Below, piece after piece: positions 7,178 to 63,834 of a stretch of DNA of 64,000 nucleotides. Numbering within the stretch: position 1 is the first letter of the stretch; the number at the start of each line of letters is the position of its first letter. The notes below the pieces were generated by a model. That model saw only the letters and a list, made by a program, of their open reading frames with translations. It made no database searches and was not told where the DNA came from. The DNA lies in the NCBI GenBank assembly GCA_007095785.1, contig SFBL01000034.1, positions 1 to 64,000 of the forward strand, given 5' to 3'. Source of the DNA: Microcystis aeruginosa Ma_SC_T_19800800_S464 (GTDB taxonomy: Bacteria > Cyanobacteriota > Cyanobacteriia > Cyanobacteriales > Microcystaceae). The translations under genes were made by a program, and so were the position numbers.

Positions 7178-9341
7178 TTAGAAAGGGTTGAAACCCATTT
7201 TTTGCTGTCCATTGAATTGCACCATCTCTCCCGGTCCAGTAAGTCTTAATCCGGGCCTTTCTCAGTTGATTTCTGGCATTGCGGGAGAGATTGTTAGTGA
7301 CAGCGATCGCTGTTTGAGGTCGAATTGACTTTAGCCATTGTTTATCTAGATTGCTTCCCTGCCATAATAACACTAGGGGGCTGAATTCTTGGGATAAATT
7401 AACGGGATTTTTCGGGTTGACAATCCATAGCCAAGATTGATTTTTTACCTGAAATTTAAATAAATTTTTCTCGATCAATTGTCCAGTAATTTCGCCGAGA
7501 TTAAATTTTTCTAACTGGGATAAAGTAATAGTTTTTTGAATCGGTATGTCCTGACTGATAGTTGAGAATTGCGCCGAATTATTGACGGTTATTGCTCCTT
7601 GGATTTGATTAATTCCCTCCTGTCGCAAAAAGGGCAAAACTGTATAACGTGCTGTGGTGGGTTCCTCCCCATTAATTAAGAGAGTATTTCCTCGATTTTG
7701 AATAATTATTACCGGTTGCGATTTGGTGGCTAAAACTGTCACCTGAGTTAAAGTCAAATGTTGATAAATAATCGGTATTAAAATTAAAGTGAGGATAAAT
7801 AAACCGACTAAATGCCAGCGTTGACGAAACCAGAGATTGCAGCAGATTAAGGTAAGGCAAATATAAATAATTAACATCACTCCTAAGGATAATTTACCTG
7901 TGGAGTAGGTACTAAAAGGAAGCAGACTAAAAAAGTTGGTAATTTGCAGTAATAACTTTAGAGGGTAATAGAGAATACTAGCACCGATACTGCCCAAAGG
8001 GGGATAAATTAAGCCTAAAAAAGCAGTAAAAACTCCTCCCAAACTAATTAGGGTAATTAGGGGAGTTGTGATAATATTAATGGGGATATTATAAAGAGCG
8101 ATCGAGTTAAACGTAAACATTAATAAAGGCATAGTCCAGAGAGTGGCAGCTAGACTAATAGCTACAGGTTCAGCGATTAAATTAGGAAAATAGTCAATTT
8201 TATTTTTCAGTAAGGGAACGGTAATAATTAATCCCAAAGTCGCTAAAAAACTTAACTGAAATCCTAAATCCCAAATCCAGAGAGGTTGCCATAATAATAG
8301 AATTGTAGCCGCTAGTAACAGGGAACCTAAACTATTAACTTGTCGATTATAAAGCAGACCGATTAATGCCCCAATTCCCATCAAAATCGCCCGCAGAACT
8401 GAAGGTTGTAACCCGGTTAAAGTCCCGTAAATTATTAAGATAGTAACGGCAATAATGAACTGTTTTTTAGGGGATAAATTGCGAGTAATAGTTAAAACAA
8501 ATCCCAACAAAATAGCCACATGAAAGCCAGAAGCTGCTAAAATGTGAGCCAATCCAGTTTTAATAAATAAATCAGTGATTTTTGCTGGCAAATTAACCGC
8601 TTGTCGTCCGAGGGTAATCGAACTTAATAAAGTGCCTTTTTCTTGGCCTAGTCCTCGAATTTGTGCCTCAACAATGCGCTGACGAATCTGCCAAACTCCC
8701 CAAGTCGGTGACTTTTTATTGATAATTATTTCCCCTTTTAAACCAGCAAAAGCACCCCGATGCGCTAGATAATTAGCAAAGTCAAAAGCATTGGGATTAT
8801 TGGCACGACGGGGACGATAAAGTAATCCTTTAACTGTTATTTCTTGTCCTGGATAAACCTGATTTTCTGCTAGATTTGGTAGAGTAACGTAGAGTTTACC
8901 TGTGGATTTTTCCTTTGGTAAATTATTCAGGCTAAATTCTTTTACTTCTAACCAAAATTGTAAATTTTCTCGGCGATTGAGACGAATTTCTGATATAATA
9001 TTGCCCGTGATTTTAATAGAGTTAACCACATTATTTTTTAAAAGATGACTGATATCGTTTGCGCTGGGGTAAGGAGTGCGAATTTCTAGATAAACAACGG
9101 CAAAGATAGCTATTAATCCCGCTATCAGCCAAATTTTTTTCGGGGGACTTTGCCACCAAAAACGACGGATAAAAGTTGTGGTTAACAGGGTAATTAGACT
9201 GATAATAACAATTCTCATTACCACTTCTTGCCATCGGTTTAACTGGGGACTAAAATCTAGCAGACCTGTAGATAATAATCCCAGAATATAGGCTAAACCA
9301 AGAATAACGCTATTAGGGCGATTCATAGAAATTTTTGTCAA
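7167..9341 (-). CDS. comEC: ComEC/Rec2 family competence protein
   Basis: A 724-residue polytopic membrane protein, probably the channel that carries single-stranded DNA across the inner membrane during natural transformation. The N-terminal third has membrane segments and a soluble OB-like DUF4131 region (about 100-210). The central ComEC domain carries the motif GLAHILAASGFHVAIL near 265, with many hydrophobic segments to about 520. The C-terminal 200 residues are a degenerate metallo-beta-lactamase-like region. The usual HxHxDH metal motif is not visible there, so a nuclease function of this domain is doubtful. sppA lies upstream in the same direction with 39 bp between. Confidence 0.85.
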   Translation of the reverse strand: MTKISMNRPNSVILGLAYILGLLSTGLLDFSPQLNRWQEVVMRIVIISLITLLTTTFIRRFWWQSPPKKIWLIAGLIAIFAVVYLEIRTPYPSANDISHLLKNNVVNSIKITGNIISEIRLNRRENLQFWLEVKEFSLNNLPKEKSTGKLYVTLPNLAENQVYPGQEITVKGLLYRPRRANNPNAFDFANYLAHRGAFAGLKGEIIINKKSPTWGVWQIRQRIVEAQIRGLGQEKGTLLSSITLGRQAVNLPAKITDLFIKTGLAHILAASGFHVAILLGFVLTITRNLSPKKQFIIAVTILIIYGTLTGLQPSVLRAILMGIGALIGLLYNRQVNSLGSLLLAATILLLWQPLWIWDLGFQLSFLATLGLIITVPLLKNKIDYFPNLIAEPVAISLAATLWTMPLLMFTFNSIALYNIPINIITTPLITLISLGGVFTAFLGLIYPPLGSIGASILYYPLKLLLQITNFFSLLPFSTYSTGKLSLGVMLIIYICLTLICCNLWFRQRWHLVGLFILTLILIPIIYQHLTLTQVTVLATKSQPVIIIQNRGNTLLINGEEPTTARYTVLPFLRQEGINQIQGAITVNNSAQFSTISQDIPIQKTITLSQLEKFNLGEITGQLIEKNLFKFQVKNQSWLWIVNPKNPVNLSQEFSPLVLLWQGSNLDKQWLKSIRPQTAIAVTNNLSRNARNQLRKARIKTYWTGRDGAIQWTAKNGFQPFLINE

Positions 9342-9380: not shown

Positions 9381-11192
9381 TCAGCGAAAATCGAGATTAA
9401 AAAGTAACTTGGCATAAACACTATGGGGATCGTTAAATGTAGGTAACTTCAATAATTCCTGCTGAAAATTTTGCCATTCCTGCGTTAAAGGGTGATTATT
9501 TTTAGTGAGAGGAGGAAGAGAGGTTTGCAAGAAATTAGAGAGAAGTTCTTCTTGCCAACTTTGCGATCGAGGATATTCTTTAATACTCCAATCATCCCCT
9601 AATTTAGCTGTTTTGGCTGCGTATTGTACTGCCGCTTCTAGTCCACCGATTTGATCAACTAAACCAATTTTAACCGCATCTTTTCCCGTCCACACGCGAC
9701 CTTGGGCCACAGTTCTAACCTTGTCTGGGGATAATTTTCGCCCCTGGGCCACCGTCTCGATAAATAAATCATAGAACTGATTAACTGCCGCTTGATAAAT
9801 TTCTAATTCTTGGGAATTTTTCGGTCTGGTAATAGTAGATATATCTGCCAATTGTCCAGTTTTAACCGTATCCCAATCAATGCCATTATTATTAGCAATC
9901 TTCTGGATGTTTAACAATAATCCAAACACACCGATCGAACCAGTAATCGTATCATTATCGGCAAAAATTCTTTGACCCCCCATCGCAATCCAATAACCCC
10001 CAGAAGCTGCCACATCACCCATAGAAATAATTACCGGTTTTTTCGCATCTAAACGCTTAATTTCCCGCAGAATAACCTCAGAAGCAGTGGCACTTCCCCC
10101 CGGACTATTAATTCTCAAAACTACCGCTTTCACCTCCTCCTTCCCTTGTAATTTTCGCAGTTCCTTCGCCAATTTATCCCCACTGATTTCGCCTCTATCT
10201 CCCTGACCTTCTACGATTGTCCCTTCTGCATAAACTATCGCTATTTGATTGCTACTATCTTCCTTCTCATCGAGAGAACTAGCATAATTAGCTAAAGAAA
10301 TTTGCGAAAAAGAGCTAGAATTTCCCTCCTCATTAGTTTTATTTTTTGCTTCTCCTGTCAACTCTTTAGCTAAAACAATTACTCGATCTAAATAGGCCAC
10401 TTCATCAACAAAACCCGCCTTTTTCGCTCTGGTTGCTTCCAGGATACCTTGAGTATCAGAAATAGTTTGCACTTGTTGGGGGGTTAAATTGCGACTTTTG
10501 GCCACTGTGGCACTATAATTAGACCAAATTGTATCGAGTAGGGTTTGCAGCTGCTGACGATTCTGGACACTTAAATCCTGACGCGTATAGGGTTCCACTG
10601 CACCCTTAAAAGAACCCACTTTTACCACTTGCACCCCCACACCATACTTTTCTAGTGCATCGGCAAAAAAGGTTTGTTGACTACTTAAACCATTAATTTC
10701 CATTCTCCCCACGGGATTAATAATCACCTTTTCAGCAACGGAAGCGAGATAATATTCCTTTTCCGTCCATTCCACATCGTAGGCGATAATTTTTTTACCC
10801 GATTGGCGAAATTTTTCCAAAGCTTGCCGCACTTCCGTCAGGGTAGCATAGCCATATTCACCGATATTGTCGCGACCGTAGAGTAACAGACCGACAATAT
10901 TATCATCAAGGGTGGCCTTTTCGATCGCTGCTATAACCTGTCGTAAATTTAAAGTGGTCCGACTCTCACTGGTCAAACTATCGGCTAAACTGGAACTAGG
11001 GGGAGCATCGCTGATATTGGTGGCCAAGTTAAAAACTAAGACTGATTTTTCCTTAACTGAGGAGCTATCGCTAGAAATAAGCAAGGAAAGCAGTAAAAAT
11101 GCTAATCCTCCCACACCTAAGACCGAAAATGCCAATAATCCCAATAAAGTTCCCAAGCAACTAGCGAAAGTTTGTTTAAAAAACTGTCCCAT
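9381..11192 (-). CDS. sppA: Signal peptide peptidase SppA, 67K type
   Basis: The 603-residue membrane-anchored serine protease degrades cleaved signal peptides; in cyanobacteria a homologue is also linked to light acclimation. It has an N-terminal membrane segment at about 14-40 and two tandem S49 domains. The catalytic Lys is probably K196 in VGSFKGAVEP and the nucleophile S397 in VAASGGYW. INSPGGSATASE precedes it. The length matches the two-domain 67K form. The start MGQFFKQTF gives a full anchor. It is likely co-oriented with comEC only by position. Confidence 0.9.
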   Translation of the reverse strand: MGQFFKQTFASCLGTLLGLLAFSVLGVGGLAFLLLSLLISSDSSSVKEKSVLVFNLATNISDAPPSSSLADSLTSESRTTLNLRQVIAAIEKATLDDNIVGLLLYGRDNIGEYGYATLTEVRQALEKFRQSGKKIIAYDVEWTEKEYYLASVAEKVIINPVGRMEINGLSSQQTFFADALEKYGVGVQVVKVGSFKGAVEPYTRQDLSVQNRQQLQTLLDTIWSNYSATVAKSRNLTPQQVQTISDTQGILEATRAKKAGFVDEVAYLDRVIVLAKELTGEAKNKTNEEGNSSSFSQISLANYASSLDEKEDSSNQIAIVYAEGTIVEGQGDRGEISGDKLAKELRKLQGKEEVKAVVLRINSPGGSATASEVILREIKRLDAKKPVIISMGDVAASGGYWIAMGGQRIFADNDTITGSIGVFGLLLNIQKIANNNGIDWDTVKTGQLADISTITRPKNSQELEIYQAAVNQFYDLFIETVAQGRKLSPDKVRTVAQGRVWTGKDAVKIGLVDQIGGLEAAVQYAAKTAKLGDDWSIKEYPRSQSWQEELLSNFLQTSLPPLTKNNHPLTQEWQNFQQELLKLPTFNDPHSVYAKLLFNLDFR

Positions 11193-39330: not shown

Positions 39331-39897
39331 ATGAGCAAACGGATCGGTGTGATATTTTTGGGACCGCCCGGATCGGGAAAAGGGACCCAAGCGGCAAAAT
39401 TAGCGGAATCTCTGACGATTCCCCATATTTCTACGGGTGAAATTTTACGTCAAGCAATTACAGAGAAGACAGAACTTGGTCAGCAAGCACAAGCTTATGT
39501 GGAAAAGGGGGAATTAGTCCCCGATGAGTTGTTGTTAGGTTTAATTCAGGAACGTTTAAAACAGCCTGACAGTGCTAAGGGTTGGATTCTTGACGGTTTT
39601 CCACGCACGGTGGCACAGGCGAGCTTTTTAGACGCATTACTGGAAGAATTGGCTGATAGTTACACATTTGTGGTTAATTTGGCTGTACCGGATACGGTCT
39701 TGATTGAACGTCTCATGCAACGGGGTCGTCAAGATGATACTCAAGAAACGATCGCCCGTCGCCTACAGGTTTATATCGACCAAACTGCCCCCGTTTTAGA
39801 TTATTACGGTCAAAAAGGGACTCTTAACCAGATCGACGGTAATCAATCGATGGACGCAGTTACTGCCGCTTTAACAGCAGTTGTTACTACTGTTTAA
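39331..39897 (+). CDS. adk: Adenylate kinase
   Basis: The 188-residue enzyme equilibrates ATP + AMP with ADP. P-loop GPPGSGKGTQ is near 11; DGFPRT is near 88. The short lid (QRGRQDDTQE) lacks zinc cysteines, as in short-type AdK. In most cyanobacteria infA, rpmJ, rpsM, rpsK, rpoA and rplQ follow; here they do not, so the operon ends or was broken after adk. Confidence 0.96.
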   Translation: MSKRIGVIFLGPPGSGKGTQAAKLAESLTIPHISTGEILRQAITEKTELGQQAQAYVEKGELVPDELLLGLIQERLKQPDSAKGWILDGFPRTVAQASFLDALLEELADSYTFVVNLAVPDTVLIERLMQRGRQDDTQETIARRLQVYIDQTAPVLDYYGQKGTLNQIDGNQSMDAVTAALTAVVTTV

Positions 39898-39899
39898 AG

Positions 39900-39960
39900 T
39901 TATCCTCAGTCAGTAATCAGTGATCAGTAATCAGTAATCAGTTATCAGTAATCAGTCAGT
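39900..39960. repeat. AGTAATC/AGTGATC heptamer tract after adk
   Basis: Tandem units of CAGTAAT, CAGTGAT and CAGTTAT directly follow the adk stop and lead up to the 353-bp duplicated element. Confidence 0.75.
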
Positions 39961-40091
39961 AAAAATTACAACTTTTGATAAGTTTTTTATATCAAACAAG
40001 CGTTAATGGTTGAGAATATTTAAATTTACATTTCGCAATATTTATCTTTTCTTAAGAATTTATTGAAAATAATTATCATTTGTTTACGAGG

Positions 40092-40121
40092 TTGCAATAC
40101 TTCCAGCGATTATGGTATAAT
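40092..40121 (+). promoter_or_regulatory. Promoter inside the duplicated element, copy A
   Basis: TTGCAA (40092-40097) and TATAAT (40116-40121) are spaced 18 bp apart, and both are identical in copy B. A start at about 40127-40128 would place the small ORF 7-8 nt from the RNA 5' end, effectively leaderless. Confidence 0.6.
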
Positions 40122-40134
40122 TTCGCAGTATGAA

Positions 40135-40242
40135 ATGATGGGTTTCTCTGTGCTTTTGGGGGTTTTTAGTTGTCTGGTGATCCTGAAAACCCTTGTTAAA
40201 TCTACACTCACCTATTCAGCAACAGCAATAAATGGCGGTTAA
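40135..40242 (+). CDS. Candidate 35-residue membrane peptide, copy A
   Basis: ATGATG starts a 35-codon ORF ending TAA. Residues 4-20 (FSVLLGVFSCLVILKTL) are hydrophobic and could span a membrane; the tail is Ser/Thr-rich. The identical-length ORF in copy B differs at 8 residues, with 2 silent changes, and only one change falls within the hydrophobic stretch. No Shine-Dalgarno site is seen. The 8:2 ratio is near neutral, so coding status is unproven. It could also be an RNA gene. Not recognised in any known family. Confidence 0.35.
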   Translation: MMGFSVLLGVFSCLVILKTLVKSTLTYSATAINGG

Positions 40243-40360
40243 AGAGCCTTTTTTAGGCCAACCCGTTGATCAATTAATTGTGTAGTTTTGTTGCAAAGAG
40301 AAAGTTTTTTTGACAAAAAGAACAGAATATGCTGCGAGTCCATCTATTTTGAGTCTGATC

Positions 40361-40419
40361 GCAGTTATCTTAATGGTGAGGTACAAAGTTTTTGTTTTGA
40401 GGAGTCAGGAGTCAGTCCT
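40361..40419. repeat. Dispersed intergenic repeat (GCAGTTATCTTAATGG family)
   Basis: gcagttatcttaatggtgag, then a T-rich stretch and gaggagtcaggagtcagtcc. It is related to 22458-22513 and to the reverse copy at 6047-6097. Confidence 0.6.
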
Positions 40420-40656
40420 GATGAAAAAATTTTCACCACCAGAGATGAAAATATTCTGATTGACGAATTTGCGTTATTTCAGCTTCTATTTTCAAGTCAG
40501 GAGATTATTTTTATTTATTCTCCCCACACCCTACACCCCACACCCCACACCAAGAGATTCTTGGGGACGAACCTAGCTAAAAATACCCCCACGCAATCGG
40601 TCAACCCGATTACGTTAAAATCAAAAGCAGGATACTGTGTATGACGGAAAAACTCG

Positions 40657-41343
40657 ATGAACTCAGTGATTAAAGCGGTACAAACTGCCTATTATGGGGA
40701 TGCAGCCTATCGGACACCACCACCGGACTTGGAATCTCTCCTGCTCAAAGAGAGAATTGTCTATCTGGGGTTGCCCTTATTTTCCTCCGATGATGTCAAG
40801 CGCAATGTCGGGGTGGACGTGACGGAATTAATTATCGCTCAACTGCTCTACCTGCAATTTGACGATCCCGAAAAACCGATTTTCTTCTATATCAACTCTA
40901 CCGGCACATCCTGGTACACGGGGGACGCGATCGGTTACGAAACCGAAGCTTTCGCCATCTGTGACACCCTCAACTACATTAAACCTCCCGTTCATACTAT
41001 CTGTATCGGACAGGCCATGGGAACTGCAGCGATGATTCTTTCTGCGGGAACCAAGGGTTTTCGCGCCTCCTTACCCCACGCTACCATTGTTCTCAACCAA
41101 AATCGCACTGGGGCCCAAGGACAAGCCACCGATATCCAGATTCGCGCCAAGGAGGTAATCGCCAACAAACAGACGATGTTAGAGATTTTCTCGAAAAATA
41201 CGGGGCAAACCACCGAAAAACTGGCGAAAGATATGGATCGCACCTTCTATCTCACCCCACAACAGGCGAAAGACTACGGATTAATCGATCGCGTTCTCGA
41301 AAGTCGCAAGGAACTACCGAAACCCCTCGCCCAAGTTAGTTAA
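40657..41343 (+). CDS. clpR: ClpR, inactive ClpP-like subunit of the Clp protease
   Basis: 228 residues with the ClpP fold. Compared with ClpP3 next door the nucleophile position reads Gly (CIGQAMG, about 122) and the His position reads Asn (IVLNQN, about 147). The protein is therefore proteolytically inactive. In cyanobacteria ClpR forms a mixed ring with ClpP3, which works with ClpC and is essential. Start MNSVIKAVQTAYYG. clpP3 follows after 35 bp in the same operon. Confidence 0.92.
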   Translation: MNSVIKAVQTAYYGDAAYRTPPPDLESLLLKERIVYLGLPLFSSDDVKRNVGVDVTELIIAQLLYLQFDDPEKPIFFYINSTGTSWYTGDAIGYETEAFAICDTLNYIKPPVHTICIGQAMGTAAMILSAGTKGFRASLPHATIVLNQNRTGAQGQATDIQIRAKEVIANKQTMLEIFSKNTGQTTEKLAKDMDRTFYLTPQQAKDYGLIDRVLESRKELPKPLAQVS

Positions 41344-60164: not shown

Positions 60165-62066
60165 TTATTCCACCGTGACACTTTTGGCTAAATTGCGCGG
60201 CTGATCCACATCTAAACCGCGACGGTACGCGATATGATAGGAGAGCAATTGTAGGGGAATTACCGTTAAAATTGGCGATAATAATTCCTCAATTTCTGGC
60301 ACATACAACAAATCATTAAAGACTTTTGGTGCTTCCGTATCGCTGTCAGCAACTACTCCCAATAACCGCGCATCCCTTGCTTTTGCTTCCTGTGCATTGG
60401 AGAGAACCTTATCATAAACTATCCCCGGCATCGCAATCGCTACTACGGGAACTTTTGCATCTAAAAGCGCAATTGGTCCGTGTTTCATTTCTCCGGCGGG
60501 ATAGCCTTCCGCATGAATATAACTGATTTCTTTGAGTTTTAAGGCCCCTTCTAAGGCAATGGGGAAATTAATCCCCCGTCCCAAGAAAATAAAGTCCTGG
60601 GTGTCATTAAATTCATGGGCCAATTCTTCGATCGCTTTTTCCTGTTTTTCTAGGACAGTTTCGATCAATCTTGGCAGCGATCGCATTTGATTAATAATTT
60701 CCTCGATTCTCTCTAAGGACAAAGTTTGACGACGATAGGATAAATCCAAAGCTAAGAGATAAAAACCCAATAACTGGGCGGTAAAACTCTTAGTTGCCGC
60801 CACCCCGATTTCGATCCCCGCTTGGGTATTAATAATCTGATCGACCATTTGTGCTAGGGTACTTTCGGGGCGATTAGTAATCCCGATAATCCGGGCCTGA
60901 TATTTTTTTCCTAATCCTAAACGACGCTGTTTTTCCGTTTCCAAAGCCGCTAAAGTGTCGGCTGTTTCCCCCGATTGCGTCACCCCGATGGTTAAAGTAT
61001 TGGGCATCAGGGGGGTGGGTGCATAGCGAAATTCCGAGGCGTACTGTACTCTTGTGGGAATACCTGCCAACTGCTCAATCAAGTATTTACCGACTAAACT
61101 AGCGTGCCAACTGGTTCCACAGGCTAAAATCTGAATATGTTCTAAATTTTCGTAAATTTCCTCAGAAAAATTAATATTTATCGGGTTGACATTATCCCCA
61201 TTTTGTGCTGTCCAATGGGGATGCAGATAGGTCCCTAAACAGTCGCGCACCACTCCGGGTTGTTCGTGGATTTCCTTGAGCATGAAGTGACGATAACCCT
61301 GTTTTTCTACGTTGGTCGGACTCCAATCGAGGACTCTGGGGCTTTTACGGACTCTTTTTCCCTCAAAATTATAAATTTCTACTCCCAAGGGTGTTAACCG
61401 AGCGATTTCGCCATTATCCAAGGACAGCACTGCCCGGGTATGGGGAACCAAAGCACTAACATCGGAGGCACAGAAAAACTCCCCTTGACCAAAACCGATG
61501 ATTAAAGGGGCGTGTTGCCGCACCACAATCAATTCATCGGGATAATCGGGACTAATCACCCCTAGGGCAAAAGCACCCTCTAAACGTTCAATTGCCCTTA
61601 AAACTGCCTTGAGGAAAGGACTCACCCCCAAGTCTTCTTCATCGGTAGGTTTAGGTAGATAACTAGCGATTAGATGGGGAATAACTTCTGTGTCGGTTTC
61701 CGAGTCAAATATACAGCCTTTTTCCTTTAATTCTGTTCTTAATGCCTGAAAATTTTCGACAATGCCATTCTGTACCACTGCTACCCGTTGACTGTTATCG
61801 GTGTGGGGATGGGCATTACTTTCTACGGGTTTGCCGTGGGTTGCCCAACGGGTGTGACCGATGCCAATTTGGGAGGGATTAACTTCCTGTTCTAATTTTT
61901 CCCGCAGATTGTAGAGTTTTCCCTGGGCGCGGACTCGATGTAATTCACCTTCGAGAATTGTGGCAATCCCTGCCGAATCATAACCCCGATATTCTAAACG
62001 TTCCAATCCAGCTAGGAGAATATCGATCGCTGTTTGGGTTCCGATATAGCCAACAATTCCGCACAT
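60165..62066 (-). CDS. glmS: Glutamine-fructose-6-phosphate aminotransferase
   Basis: Makes glucosamine-6-phosphate for peptidoglycan and lipopolysaccharide. The start MCGIVGYIG exposes Cys as the N-terminal nucleophile after Met removal; the upstream ATG at 62078 is unnecessary. The Ntn glutaminase domain (1-about 240) is followed by two SIS sugar isomerase domains (CGTSWHASLVGK and GRGINFPIALEGALKLKEISY). The end DQPRNLAKSVTVE is the standard GlmS tail. No glmS-ribozyme motif was seen upstream. A copy of the 353-bp element lies 165 bp upstream. Confidence 0.96.
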   Translation of the reverse strand: MCGIVGYIGTQTAIDILLAGLERLEYRGYDSAGIATILEGELHRVRAQGKLYNLREKLEQEVNPSQIGIGHTRWATHGKPVESNAHPHTDNSQRVAVVQNGIVENFQALRTELKEKGCIFDSETDTEVIPHLIASYLPKPTDEEDLGVSPFLKAVLRAIERLEGAFALGVISPDYPDELIVVRQHAPLIIGFGQGEFFCASDVSALVPHTRAVLSLDNGEIARLTPLGVEIYNFEGKRVRKSPRVLDWSPTNVEKQGYRHFMLKEIHEQPGVVRDCLGTYLHPHWTAQNGDNVNPININFSEEIYENLEHIQILACGTSWHASLVGKYLIEQLAGIPTRVQYASEFRYAPTPLMPNTLTIGVTQSGETADTLAALETEKQRRLGLGKKYQARIIGITNRPESTLAQMVDQIINTQAGIEIGVAATKSFTAQLLGFYLLALDLSYRRQTLSLERIEEIINQMRSLPRLIETVLEKQEKAIEELAHEFNDTQDFIFLGRGINFPIALEGALKLKEISYIHAEGYPAGEMKHGPIALLDAKVPVVAIAMPGIVYDKVLSNAQEAKARDARLLGVVADSDTEAPKVFNDLLYVPEIEELLSPILTVIPLQLLSYHIAYRRGLDVDQPRNLAKSVTVE

Positions 62067-62322
62067 TCTTTCGCTCACCCCATTTAGGCTAAGTCCGATC
62101 TATTCTATCGCAAGCGTGACACTTGTTTGCTTAGAGGCTCAAGACGTAGGGGCAAGGGTAAAGTTTCCCCTATAGGAGATTGGGGTCTGGGGTGTGGGGA
62201 GAATAAATAAAAGCAATATGGATCACTCAACAGCATATTCTGTTCTTTTTGTCAAAAAAACTTTCCCTTTGCAACAAAACTACACAATTAATTGATCAAC
62301 ACGTTGACTTTAAAAAGGCTCT

Positions 62323-62430
62323 TTAACTGCCAGTTGTTGCTGTTGTCGAATAGGTAAGTCTAGATTTAGCAAGGGTTTTCAGGATCACCAGACAACTAAA
62401 AACCCCAAAAAGCACAGAGAAACGCATCAT
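62323..62430 (-). CDS. Candidate 35-residue membrane peptide, copy B
   Basis: Same ORF as 40135-40242, ATGATG to TAA with identical length. Residues 3-20 (RFSVLFGVFSCLVILKTL) are hydrophobic and the tail is Ser/Thr-rich (YSTTATTGS). Differences from copy A cluster in the C-terminal half. Evidence for translation is only the conserved frame and promoter position; see copy A for caveats. Confidence 0.35.
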   Translation of the reverse strand: MMRFSVLFGVFSCLVILKTLAKSRLTYSTTATTGS

Positions 62431-62443
62431 TTCATACTGCGAA

Positions 62444-62473
62444 ATTATACCATAATCGCTGGAAGTATTGCAA
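62444..62473 (-). promoter_or_regulatory. Promoter inside the duplicated element, copy B
   Basis: TTGCAA and TATAAT, 18 bp apart, read on the minus strand; identical to copy A. Together with the ORF this is the best conserved part of the element. Confidence 0.6.
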
Positions 62474-62847
62474 CCTCGTAAACAAATAAAAATTATTCTC
62501 AATAAGTTCTTAAAAAATAATAAATATTGCGAAATGTAAATTTCAATATTCTCAACTATTAACGCTTGTTTGATATAAAAAACCTATAGAAGGTAATTAG
62601 GGTTTGCGGCAAAAAGTTTTTCGTGGGGGTAGGAGTCGGTCGTTGCAAGCTTTGTTGCCCTCTTTTTTTGTACCAGTTTATATACTATAAGAAGGATAAG
62701 AGCATTTTAACCGTCTATCCTGAGATTAGCTGAATCTGACCCAATCCCTCTACTGTTGCCCGTTGCCAGAGTGTAAGAGTACCTCATCCCAACAAGCAAT
62801 TTAAATACACGGGCAGCTTATGAGAGAAAATAGTGACTGGCAGATTT

Positions 62848-63834
62848 CTAGTCGATAATTAGGGCAATTTTCCCCGTCACCGAACCAGTTTCTAGCAATT
62901 GATGGGCGCTGATAGCTGCCGCTAAAGGGAAGGTTTGGGAGAGATGAATAGTTAACTTTTTCTCGTCAATTAAACGCGCTCCTTGCTTGAGAATTTCTGT
63001 TTGATATTTTTGCGCTTCTGGCAGTCCCATCAAAGCCGGGGTTAACATTAATTCTAAACTAATCCGCAAATTGCGATCGCGTGCTTCCTTCCAGCTGCCC
63101 CTAGGTTCCAAAATCGTCACCATATCGCCATAAACTCGCACCGCTCGGCAAGTCTGCCCAAAAGTTTCCCCTCCCACCGTATCAAAAGCGACATCTACCC
63201 CTTTCCCTGCGGTTTCTTGAAGTATCGCCGCGACAAAATCGGTTTGTTTGTATAAAATCGGGTAATCTGCCCCTAATTGCCGCACTAAACGCTCTTTATC
63301 GCTATTTCCCACCGTTGTATAAACTTTAGCCCCTTTCAGTTTCGCCAACTGAATTGCGACATGACCAACACCCCCGGCCCCGCCATGGATAAGGACGCTT
63401 TGCCCCGACTGAAGACGGGCGCGATCATAGAGTGCTTCCCAAGCGGTGATTAAAACCAACGGTACAGAGGCCGCCTCGGCAAAAGAAAGAGATTTCGGCT
63501 TGTGGGCTAGATAATCCGCCTCGATCAGGGCGTATTCGGCATAATTTCCCGTGCCGGCCTTGCCCAGTCCGCCGCTGCAAAAGTACACTTCATCCCCGGG
63601 GCGAAAATCCTGCACCGCCGCCCCAACGGCCTCGACAATTCCCGCCCCGTCACAGCCCAAAATCGCCGGCATTTGCTCGGGGTAAAAAGTGCCGCGTTTA
63701 CGAATTTTTGTATCAATAGGGTTGACACCAGCGGCTTTTAATGCTACTAAAACCTGATGGGGTTGACTAATTTCCGGGGTGGGGACTTGCTGAAGCTGCA
63801 GGACATCCACCGCGGTCATGAGGATAGCTTTCAT
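62848..63834 (-). CDS. Zinc-free NADPH:quinone oxidoreductase family protein
   Basis: 328-residue medium-chain reductase. MKAILMTAVDVLQLQQV and AAGVNPIDTKIRKRG are the GroES-like N-terminus. VLIHGGAGGVGHVAIQLAKLKG is the cofactor motif near 146, and structural-zinc cysteines are absent. It resembles quinone reductases, as does the gene at 3767-4711. It begins 5 bp after the accB stop and may be co-transcribed with it. Confidence 0.9.
   Translation of the reverse strand: MKAILMTAVDVLQLQQVPTPEISQPHQVLVALKAAGVNPIDTKIRKRGTFYPEQMPAILGCDGAGIVEAVGAAVQDFRPGDEVYFCSGGLGKAGTGNYAEYALIEADYLAHKPKSLSFAEAASVPLVLITAWEALYDRARLQSGQSVLIHGGAGGVGHVAIQLAKLKGAKVYTTVGNSDKERLVRQLGADYPILYKQTDFVAAILQETAGKGVDVAFDTVGGETFGQTCRAVRVYGDMVTILEPRGSWKEARDRNLRISLELMLTPALMGLPEAQKYQTEILKQGARLIDEKKLTIHLSQTFPLAAAISAHQLLETGSVTGKIALIID

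Follow-up and report, generated by a model that had tools for sequence, protein, structure and literature searches.

The two inverted 353-nt repeats found upstream of clpR and glmS in the window, a 64,000-nt stretch of Microcystis aeruginosa DNA, are tentatively interpreted as members of a dispersed, non-coding tandem-promoter cassette that would be under purifying selection and would serve as a site of recombination. We hold this interpretation at somewhat less than even confidence. It is the most economical reading of the data; less probable alternatives are a domesticated mobile element, a family of small RNAs, and a site of chromosome organisation. From sequence patterns, we infer that the upstream promoter (P1) and the 3' module would act as promoters, that a regulator would bind the element, and that recombination would proceed by way of its copies. 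The features of the two copies (A and B) and their neighbours are as follows.

39982 to 40334, plus strand: copy A, between adk and clpR, delimited by alignment with B and by locus comparison
40009 to 40087, plus strand: conserved 5' block of A, ahead of P1, maintained among paralogs and between genera
40064 to 40078, plus strand: Fur-like 7-1-7 box of A, matching 13 of 14 positions of a motif set after the family had been seen
40092 to 40121, plus strand: putative promoter P1 of A, TTGCAA-18-TATAAT, its second hexamer preceded by TG
40122 to 40271, plus strand: middle of A, poorly conserved, of steady length within type; would be read from P1
40272 to 40334, plus strand: 3' module of A, an AT-rich stretch with TTGACA at 40310–40315 and TATG at 40328–40331
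62231 to 62583, minus strand: copy B, between a quinone-oxidoreductase-like gene (QOR) and glmS
62444 to 62473, minus strand: putative promoter P1 of B, TTGCAA-18-TATAAT
62231 to 62293, minus strand: 3' module of B
39331 to 39897, plus strand: adk (adenylate kinase; Pfam ADK), upstream neighbour of A
40657 to 41343, plus strand: clpR-like gene, downstream neighbour of A, an ORF named in the initial annotation
60165 to 62078, minus strand: glmS (Pfam SIS and glutamine amidotransferase), downstream neighbour of B
62848 to 63834, minus strand: QOR (Pfam ADH_zinc_N), upstream neighbour of B

Alignment of A with B confirmed the coordinates, equal length (353 nt each), inverted orientation, and gap-free match described in the initial annotation; the identity it put at about 90% is slightly higher, at 92.9% (328/353 positions, zero gaps). 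The same annotation counted two copies, which is accurate for the window, where no third full copy was found beyond A and B, but not for the genome, which has about 15. At the A locus, genomes agree in where the element ends, and comparison yielded no clean empty site, either there or at surE. Stretches within the gaps flanking A (window 39910–39956 and 40354–40551) recur at many places in the genome.

Queried with A plus flanking sequence, the window's own genome yielded these approximately 15 full copies: A and B, two T types at 76–77%, about ten shorter copies at 67–68%, and one divergent copy (U); one of the 15 is internally deleted. All 12 of the genus genomes searched contain matches, with lower-bound numbers ranging from at least 17 to at least 32 each, partial matches included. 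Five of these genomes, examined more closely, yielded 93 records, including a single element that is split in two; grouped by single linkage of their flanks, the records form 27 positions. Seven positions are found in all five genomes, seven in four, five in three, two in two, and six in one genome only; since 21 of the 27 are common to at least two genomes, most positions predate the species. Neighbouring genes occur in all four orientations relative to the element across the five genomes. The proposal that the element faces the next gene thus describes A and B but was rejected as a rule for the family, although in a small sample from other genera of the family many of the nearest downstream genes are co-directional. 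A literature search returned no title or abstract opening describing this element, which is not proof of its absence; the repeat is a non-coding genome feature without assigned function in bloom-forming cyanobacteria.

Beyond the genus, a profile of the 5' block matched further genera of the family, including probable Crocosphaera and Cyanothece sp. BG0011, with only one to five matches in each genus that has any; the element occupies different positions in different genera. Of 291 genomes from the order, 67 were matched by a cross-genus profile of the 5' block alone (E ≤ 0.001); they represent 33 of 121 sampled genera, and per-genome numbers are again lower bounds. The 3' module was sought in the genus, its family, family f33, and genome G145. 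By a TTGACA–TG test, 12 of 13 copies in the family's other genera have both blocks, in order. Members of f33 listed in the order-wide scan have from at least one to at least eight matches each; here, TTGACA lies 244–255 nt past the Fur-like box in 7/8 loci, and a 3'-module model matches behind the 5' block at E ≤ 1 in 5/8, strongly in one. In the 6.6-Mb genome G145 (family f14), the 5' block is matched 45 times, yet the 3' module was not found behind it in any of the eight loci searched; three of these eight are matched on the opposite strand as well, at the same spot, and the G145 matches are perhaps a different, partly palindromic repeat.

Copies from the genus and family share two conserved blocks, an upstream block with the Fur-like box and P1, and the 3' module. 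Constraint on these was assessed among 72 short copies from five genomes, which were gathered by similarity and so under-represent decayed copies; truncated copies exist outside the 72. Ortholog divergence was 2.0% in the 5' block and 1.6% in the 3' block, as compared with 7.5% in the putatively transcribed middle and 9.2% (388/4216) at four-fold coding sites of adk, clpR, clpP, and glmS. To allow for a possibly lower mutation rate of AT-rich DNA, A/T sites were also compared by themselves; there the blocks diverged by 0.7% and the middle by 6.7%, a contrast reached by none of 10000 site permutations, whereas in A-type copies blocks and middle differ at such sites by a factor of only about two. 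The 72 short copies show no insertions, and three have deletions (40, 1, and 1 nt). Well-aligned ortholog pairs had on average 4.6 and 3.4 gap runs per 250-nt flank versus 0.8 and 1.0 in the element, while substitution identity for flank and element was 94.8 versus 95.2% and 94.5 versus 94.8%; only gaps differ. The within-element contrast suggests that the blocks are under selection where copies share a position, a reading complicated by exchange between copies; dead transposon copies would not show such selection. Spacing between the blocks is 212, 222, 245, 246, or 215–235 nt, depending on type, and helical phasing between them was rejected, as these distances do not follow steps of helical turns.

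The internal promoter-like site recognized in the initial annotation, TTGCAA-18-TATAAT, is a 30-nt stretch in which A and B do not differ; of 14 A-type copies in the genus, 12 retain it, and a stretch closely resembling it is also found in f33. Matches of P1 quality are not unusual by themselves, with two in 501 nt against a shuffle mean of 2.3. In short copies, the −35 and −10 places are the most variable of all, with ortholog divergences of 27% and 26%, respectively, about three times that of four-fold sites. The spacer between the hexamers diverges by 3.3%, and the six bases past the −10 island are invariant. Among the 72 short copies there are 22 haplotypes at the −35 place and eight at the −10 place, where 26 copies have none of TAGAAT, TACAAT, or CATAAT; as whole haplotypes, 36 copies have TTTGATAGAATTTC and 22 have TTTTACTGAATTTC, mixed among loci and species. 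Exchange between copies and diversifying selection would both fit this variability.

Fur boxes are present in regulated promoters of cyanobacteria. A Fur-like palindrome ends the 5' block, matching 14/14 positions in copies L243 and L244 and 13/14 in A and four others; at the aligned place, 12 of 18 copies tested match 12–14 of 14 positions of this motif, which was chosen post hoc, and B contains a 15-mer scoring 12/14 to the same post hoc motif. None of 60 shuffles scored as well for A, L243, or L244, whereas the short copy tested scored 11/14, with 4/60 shuffles as good. A 7-1-7 palindrome is found near the putative promoter, as would be predicted for a Fur-regulated promoter, with a motif set after the sequences had been seen. 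The HLR1 motif of RpaB-regulated cyanobacterial promoters, (G/T)TTACA(T/A)(T/A)NN(G/T)TTACA(T/A)(T/A), was taken from PMC11633204; A matches 13/16 of its positions, at chance level (31/60 shuffles as good). An RpaB promoter was rejected on this basis, with L251 (16/16) and L244 (15/16, minus strand) as exceptions for which 0/60 shuffles each were as good.

The 3' module consists of TTGACA-N14-TG located 212–246 nt after the Fur-like box. A TG at the extended −10 place after TTGACA is present in 71/72 short, 9/9 T-type, and 8/9 A-type rows, and beyond the genus in 12/13 copies of other family genera and 16/19 of f33. A TA one base past this TG is found in 45/72 short copies, 9/9 T-type, 13/19 f33, and 5/13 other-genus copies, and in none of nine A-type or three U-type rows, so that no −10 is recognisable in the 3' modules of A and B. 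The arrangement resembles an outward-pointing promoter, one that in these two copies has no clear −10. A solitary 3' module occurs at one position, seen in four genus genomes. Elsewhere, locus L285 (G009:C1:4702100-4703200) contains direct copies of the 3' module at 96–169 and 527–600 around an RNA-like locus of about 300 nt, which ends in what looks by eye like a tRNA T-loop and acceptor; neither ARAGORN nor Rfam (gathering score) identified a gene in this RNA-like locus. A further shared stretch, around ACGTATTTCTGGCTGCGAG, lies past the 3' module in five of the ten short copies of the window's own genome (L005, L008, L012, L013, and L017) and is absent from the other five.

In the window the junctions are adk-A-clpR and QOR-B-glmS, unlike the commoner order, adk-A-glmS, which occurs with a single element in G004, G005, G006, and G009. 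In G002 the order is adk-A-methylase-A-glmS, with both A copies direct; the same plan fits G010, where it is spread over two contigs, and G011, where there are insertions. G003 has the adk side of the methylase array, G001 has adk-A-methylase-clpR, and G008 has A-clpR at a contig end; G007 had no A-type match. By majority, and without an outgroup, we infer that the window order is derived, with an element at each junction. The initial annotation had proposed A and B as substrates of an inversion of about 22 kb. Both junctions do differ from the commoner order, which supports a link with rearrangement, but a single A–B inversion does not by itself restore it, because QOR and clpR are separated by only about 140 nt in G002, G005, and G006, leaving no room for the element (the distance is 1 to 2 kb in G009 and G007). 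A tree did not resolve B as a descendant of the glmS-side copy.

The methylase of the array has an N6/N4 methylase domain. Site-specific insertion of A-methylase-A was rejected because part of the gap preceding A2 recurs ahead of A in G001 and G010, a sign of homologous duplication. In G269 (f33), TumE and YefM-YoeB genes lie between two direct copies. Next to a pyrF-like gene (named by eye), one f33 position is followed by different genes in each of the five genomes compared; one genome has DUF4258 with a partner just under the MqsA cut-off, and two others, when searched, gave no Pfam family. Such methylase and toxin–antitoxin neighbours may also be common at random intergenic sites. Of 153 ortholog pairs in the genus, 74 match on both flanks, 37 on the upstream flank alone, 23 on the downstream flank alone, and 19 on neither directly. 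Directional insertion of cargo was rejected, as the 60/153 pairs with one unmatched flank have it on either side with no clear bias in this uncontrolled comparison. In the window's own genome, contig C121 of G000 contains a 5'-truncated T-like copy (7567–7770) and a full copy (10528–10870) in the same direction, 2.8 kb apart, possibly another element-cargo-element array. The stretch before surE, which includes a tRNA-like sequence (by eye), varies among G009 (L143) and 11 other genomes and holds a restriction-modification-like gene in several of them; an element before surE was seen in G009 only (410 nt compared).

The conserved blocks and the dispersed positions lend themselves to other explanations. 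A peptide cassette, as raised in the initial annotation, and likewise a small-protein or type I toxin gene were rejected, since the frame after P1 is not kept among copies: a stop replaces the tryptophan codon in 15/72 short copies and 1/11 A-type copies, and other A-type residues drift. The annotation's observation that the element carries no recognised gene is supported. That P1 might instead make a trans-acting RNA of about 150–190 nt, with the copies constituting multi-copy small-RNA genes, is an unlikely reading, though one with which the conserved block upstream of P1, a weakly conserved box (GAAACCCTTG), and the steady length of the middle in short copies (no insertions, deletions in 3/72) agree. 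The putatively transcribed part is nevertheless near-neutral (7.5% against 9.2% at four-fold sites). Fold z-scores relative to shuffles were −0.20 (A), 0.11 (B), −0.08, 2.16, −0.36, and −1.94, the last for the U-type copy, which folds better than most shuffles and so favors an RNA; whole A gave −0.61 and −0.78 on the two strands. As five of the six copies fold about as stably as shuffles or less, a structured RNA was rejected, and with it the annotation's suggestion of a structured regulatory RNA. The strongest covarying columns are neighbours and do not form helices, and no terminator-like site was found at A. At gathering score, Rfam gave no match on the element, its hits in L003, L242, and L251 falling outside the copies; looser thresholds gave one chance-level snoRNA match on copy L005 (E 0.81, 27.9 bits against 80), and a second looser search gave nothing on the element. 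The annotation had named a group II intron or IS fragment as an identity that would overturn its proposal, and Rfam returned no such match: no group II intron was matched in the window, and in L251 the matches to introns are about 0.5 kb away from the copy. A TPP riboswitch is located at L242 1716–1812, 77 nt outside the 5' block of the G030 copy, and precedes a thiC-like gene (named by eye).

A domesticated, non-autonomous MITE-like element, with its ends kept for transposition by an enzyme acting in trans, is the alternative we regard as doubtful but as the strongest of those considered. It would account for the dispersed copies (at least about 20 per genome in the genus), for positions that differ between genera, and for the six of 27 positions found in one of the five genomes only. 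No terminal inverted repeats were seen in the copy alignments, judged by eye, in agreement with the initial annotation. The blocks moreover remain constrained at positions shared between species, and neither phage and plasmid collections, queried with one short copy, nor viral contigs, queried with one pattern, gave a match. The mobility suggested in the annotation is consistent, indirectly, with dispersal over evolutionary time; recent transposition is not supported, given that short paralogs within one genome are about 7% apart and that 21/27 positions occur in at least two of the five genomes. The weakness of the 3' module in f33, and the failure to find it in G145, slightly lower the odds of a tandem-promoter cassette and of the landing pads discussed below, and raise those of a mobile element. 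Less probable than any of these is a chromosome-organising site, in which nucleoid or segregation proteins would bind the two blocks at a set distance. DNA-level constraint in two AT-rich blocks with few indels between them, and at least about 20 dispersed intergenic copies, would suit such a role; a spacing that varies by type without helical steps, and the mere one to five matches in other family genera that have any, would not.

Several known systems resemble the element in part. The BOX/RUP, Correia, and REP/REPIN families are small repeats at many intergenic positions, some with outward promoters. The present element is likewise a small repeat shared at many intergenic positions; however, no inverted ends or palindromic unit were seen in the genus, the element has two promoter-like blocks, and its constraint was measured at orthologous positions. 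In integron cassettes, a promoter-bearing site lies beside exchangeable cargo, and the element too is promoter-like and found beside exchangeable cargo (methylase and toxin–antitoxin genes), although the G002 array looks like duplication by homologous recombination. As in cyanobacterial HLR1 and Fur promoters, an extended −10 promoter-like site has a Fur-like palindrome just upstream, but those known promoters belong to particular genes, whereas the element is a repeat beside unrelated genes. Within the species, PMC11448079 describes a 187-nt ISL3-related MITE of M. aeruginosa PCC 7806 that is short, non-coding, dispersed, and mainly intergenic, with about 30 copies per genome, imperfect inverted ends of 9 nt, direct terminal repeats of 8 nt, and copies that do not differ within a strain. 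As compared with that description, the element is similarly short, non-coding, dispersed, and mainly intergenic, but it shows no inverted ends, its copies are diverged at shared positions, and it has two constrained blocks.

Under the preferred reading of a tandem-promoter cassette, P1, with its upstream block, Fur-like box, and extended −10, would be a regulated promoter starting a short, weakly constrained transcript, and the second, promoter-like 3' module, 212–246 nt after the Fur-like box, would point outward. The unit may thereby supply outward transcription to whatever adjoins it downstream. Against this reading stand the variable P1 hexamers of short copies, the unrecognisable −10 in the 3' modules of A and B, flanks as similar in substitution identity as the element itself, the mixed orientation of neighbours, the roughly two-fold contrast in A-type copies, the existence of truncated copies, and a 3' module that is weak in f33 and was not found in the G145 loci searched. 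Similar copies would also allow exchange, gain, or loss of neighbouring DNA via homologous recombination, and recombination between copies is a possible origin of the adk/glmS/clpR junctions of the window. A more elaborate version, which we consider rather unlikely, is that the elements are twin-promoter landing pads that provide regulated outward transcription, with direct pairs swapping defence and toxin–antitoxin cargo by homologous recombination without an integrase, and with the −35 and −10 hexamers of short copies diversifying so as to tune each pad. With at least about 20 promoter-like units per genome in one shared frame and with varying core hexamers, the family would offer a test bed for promoter diversification, and the element marks some sites of rearrangement and defence-gene turnover.
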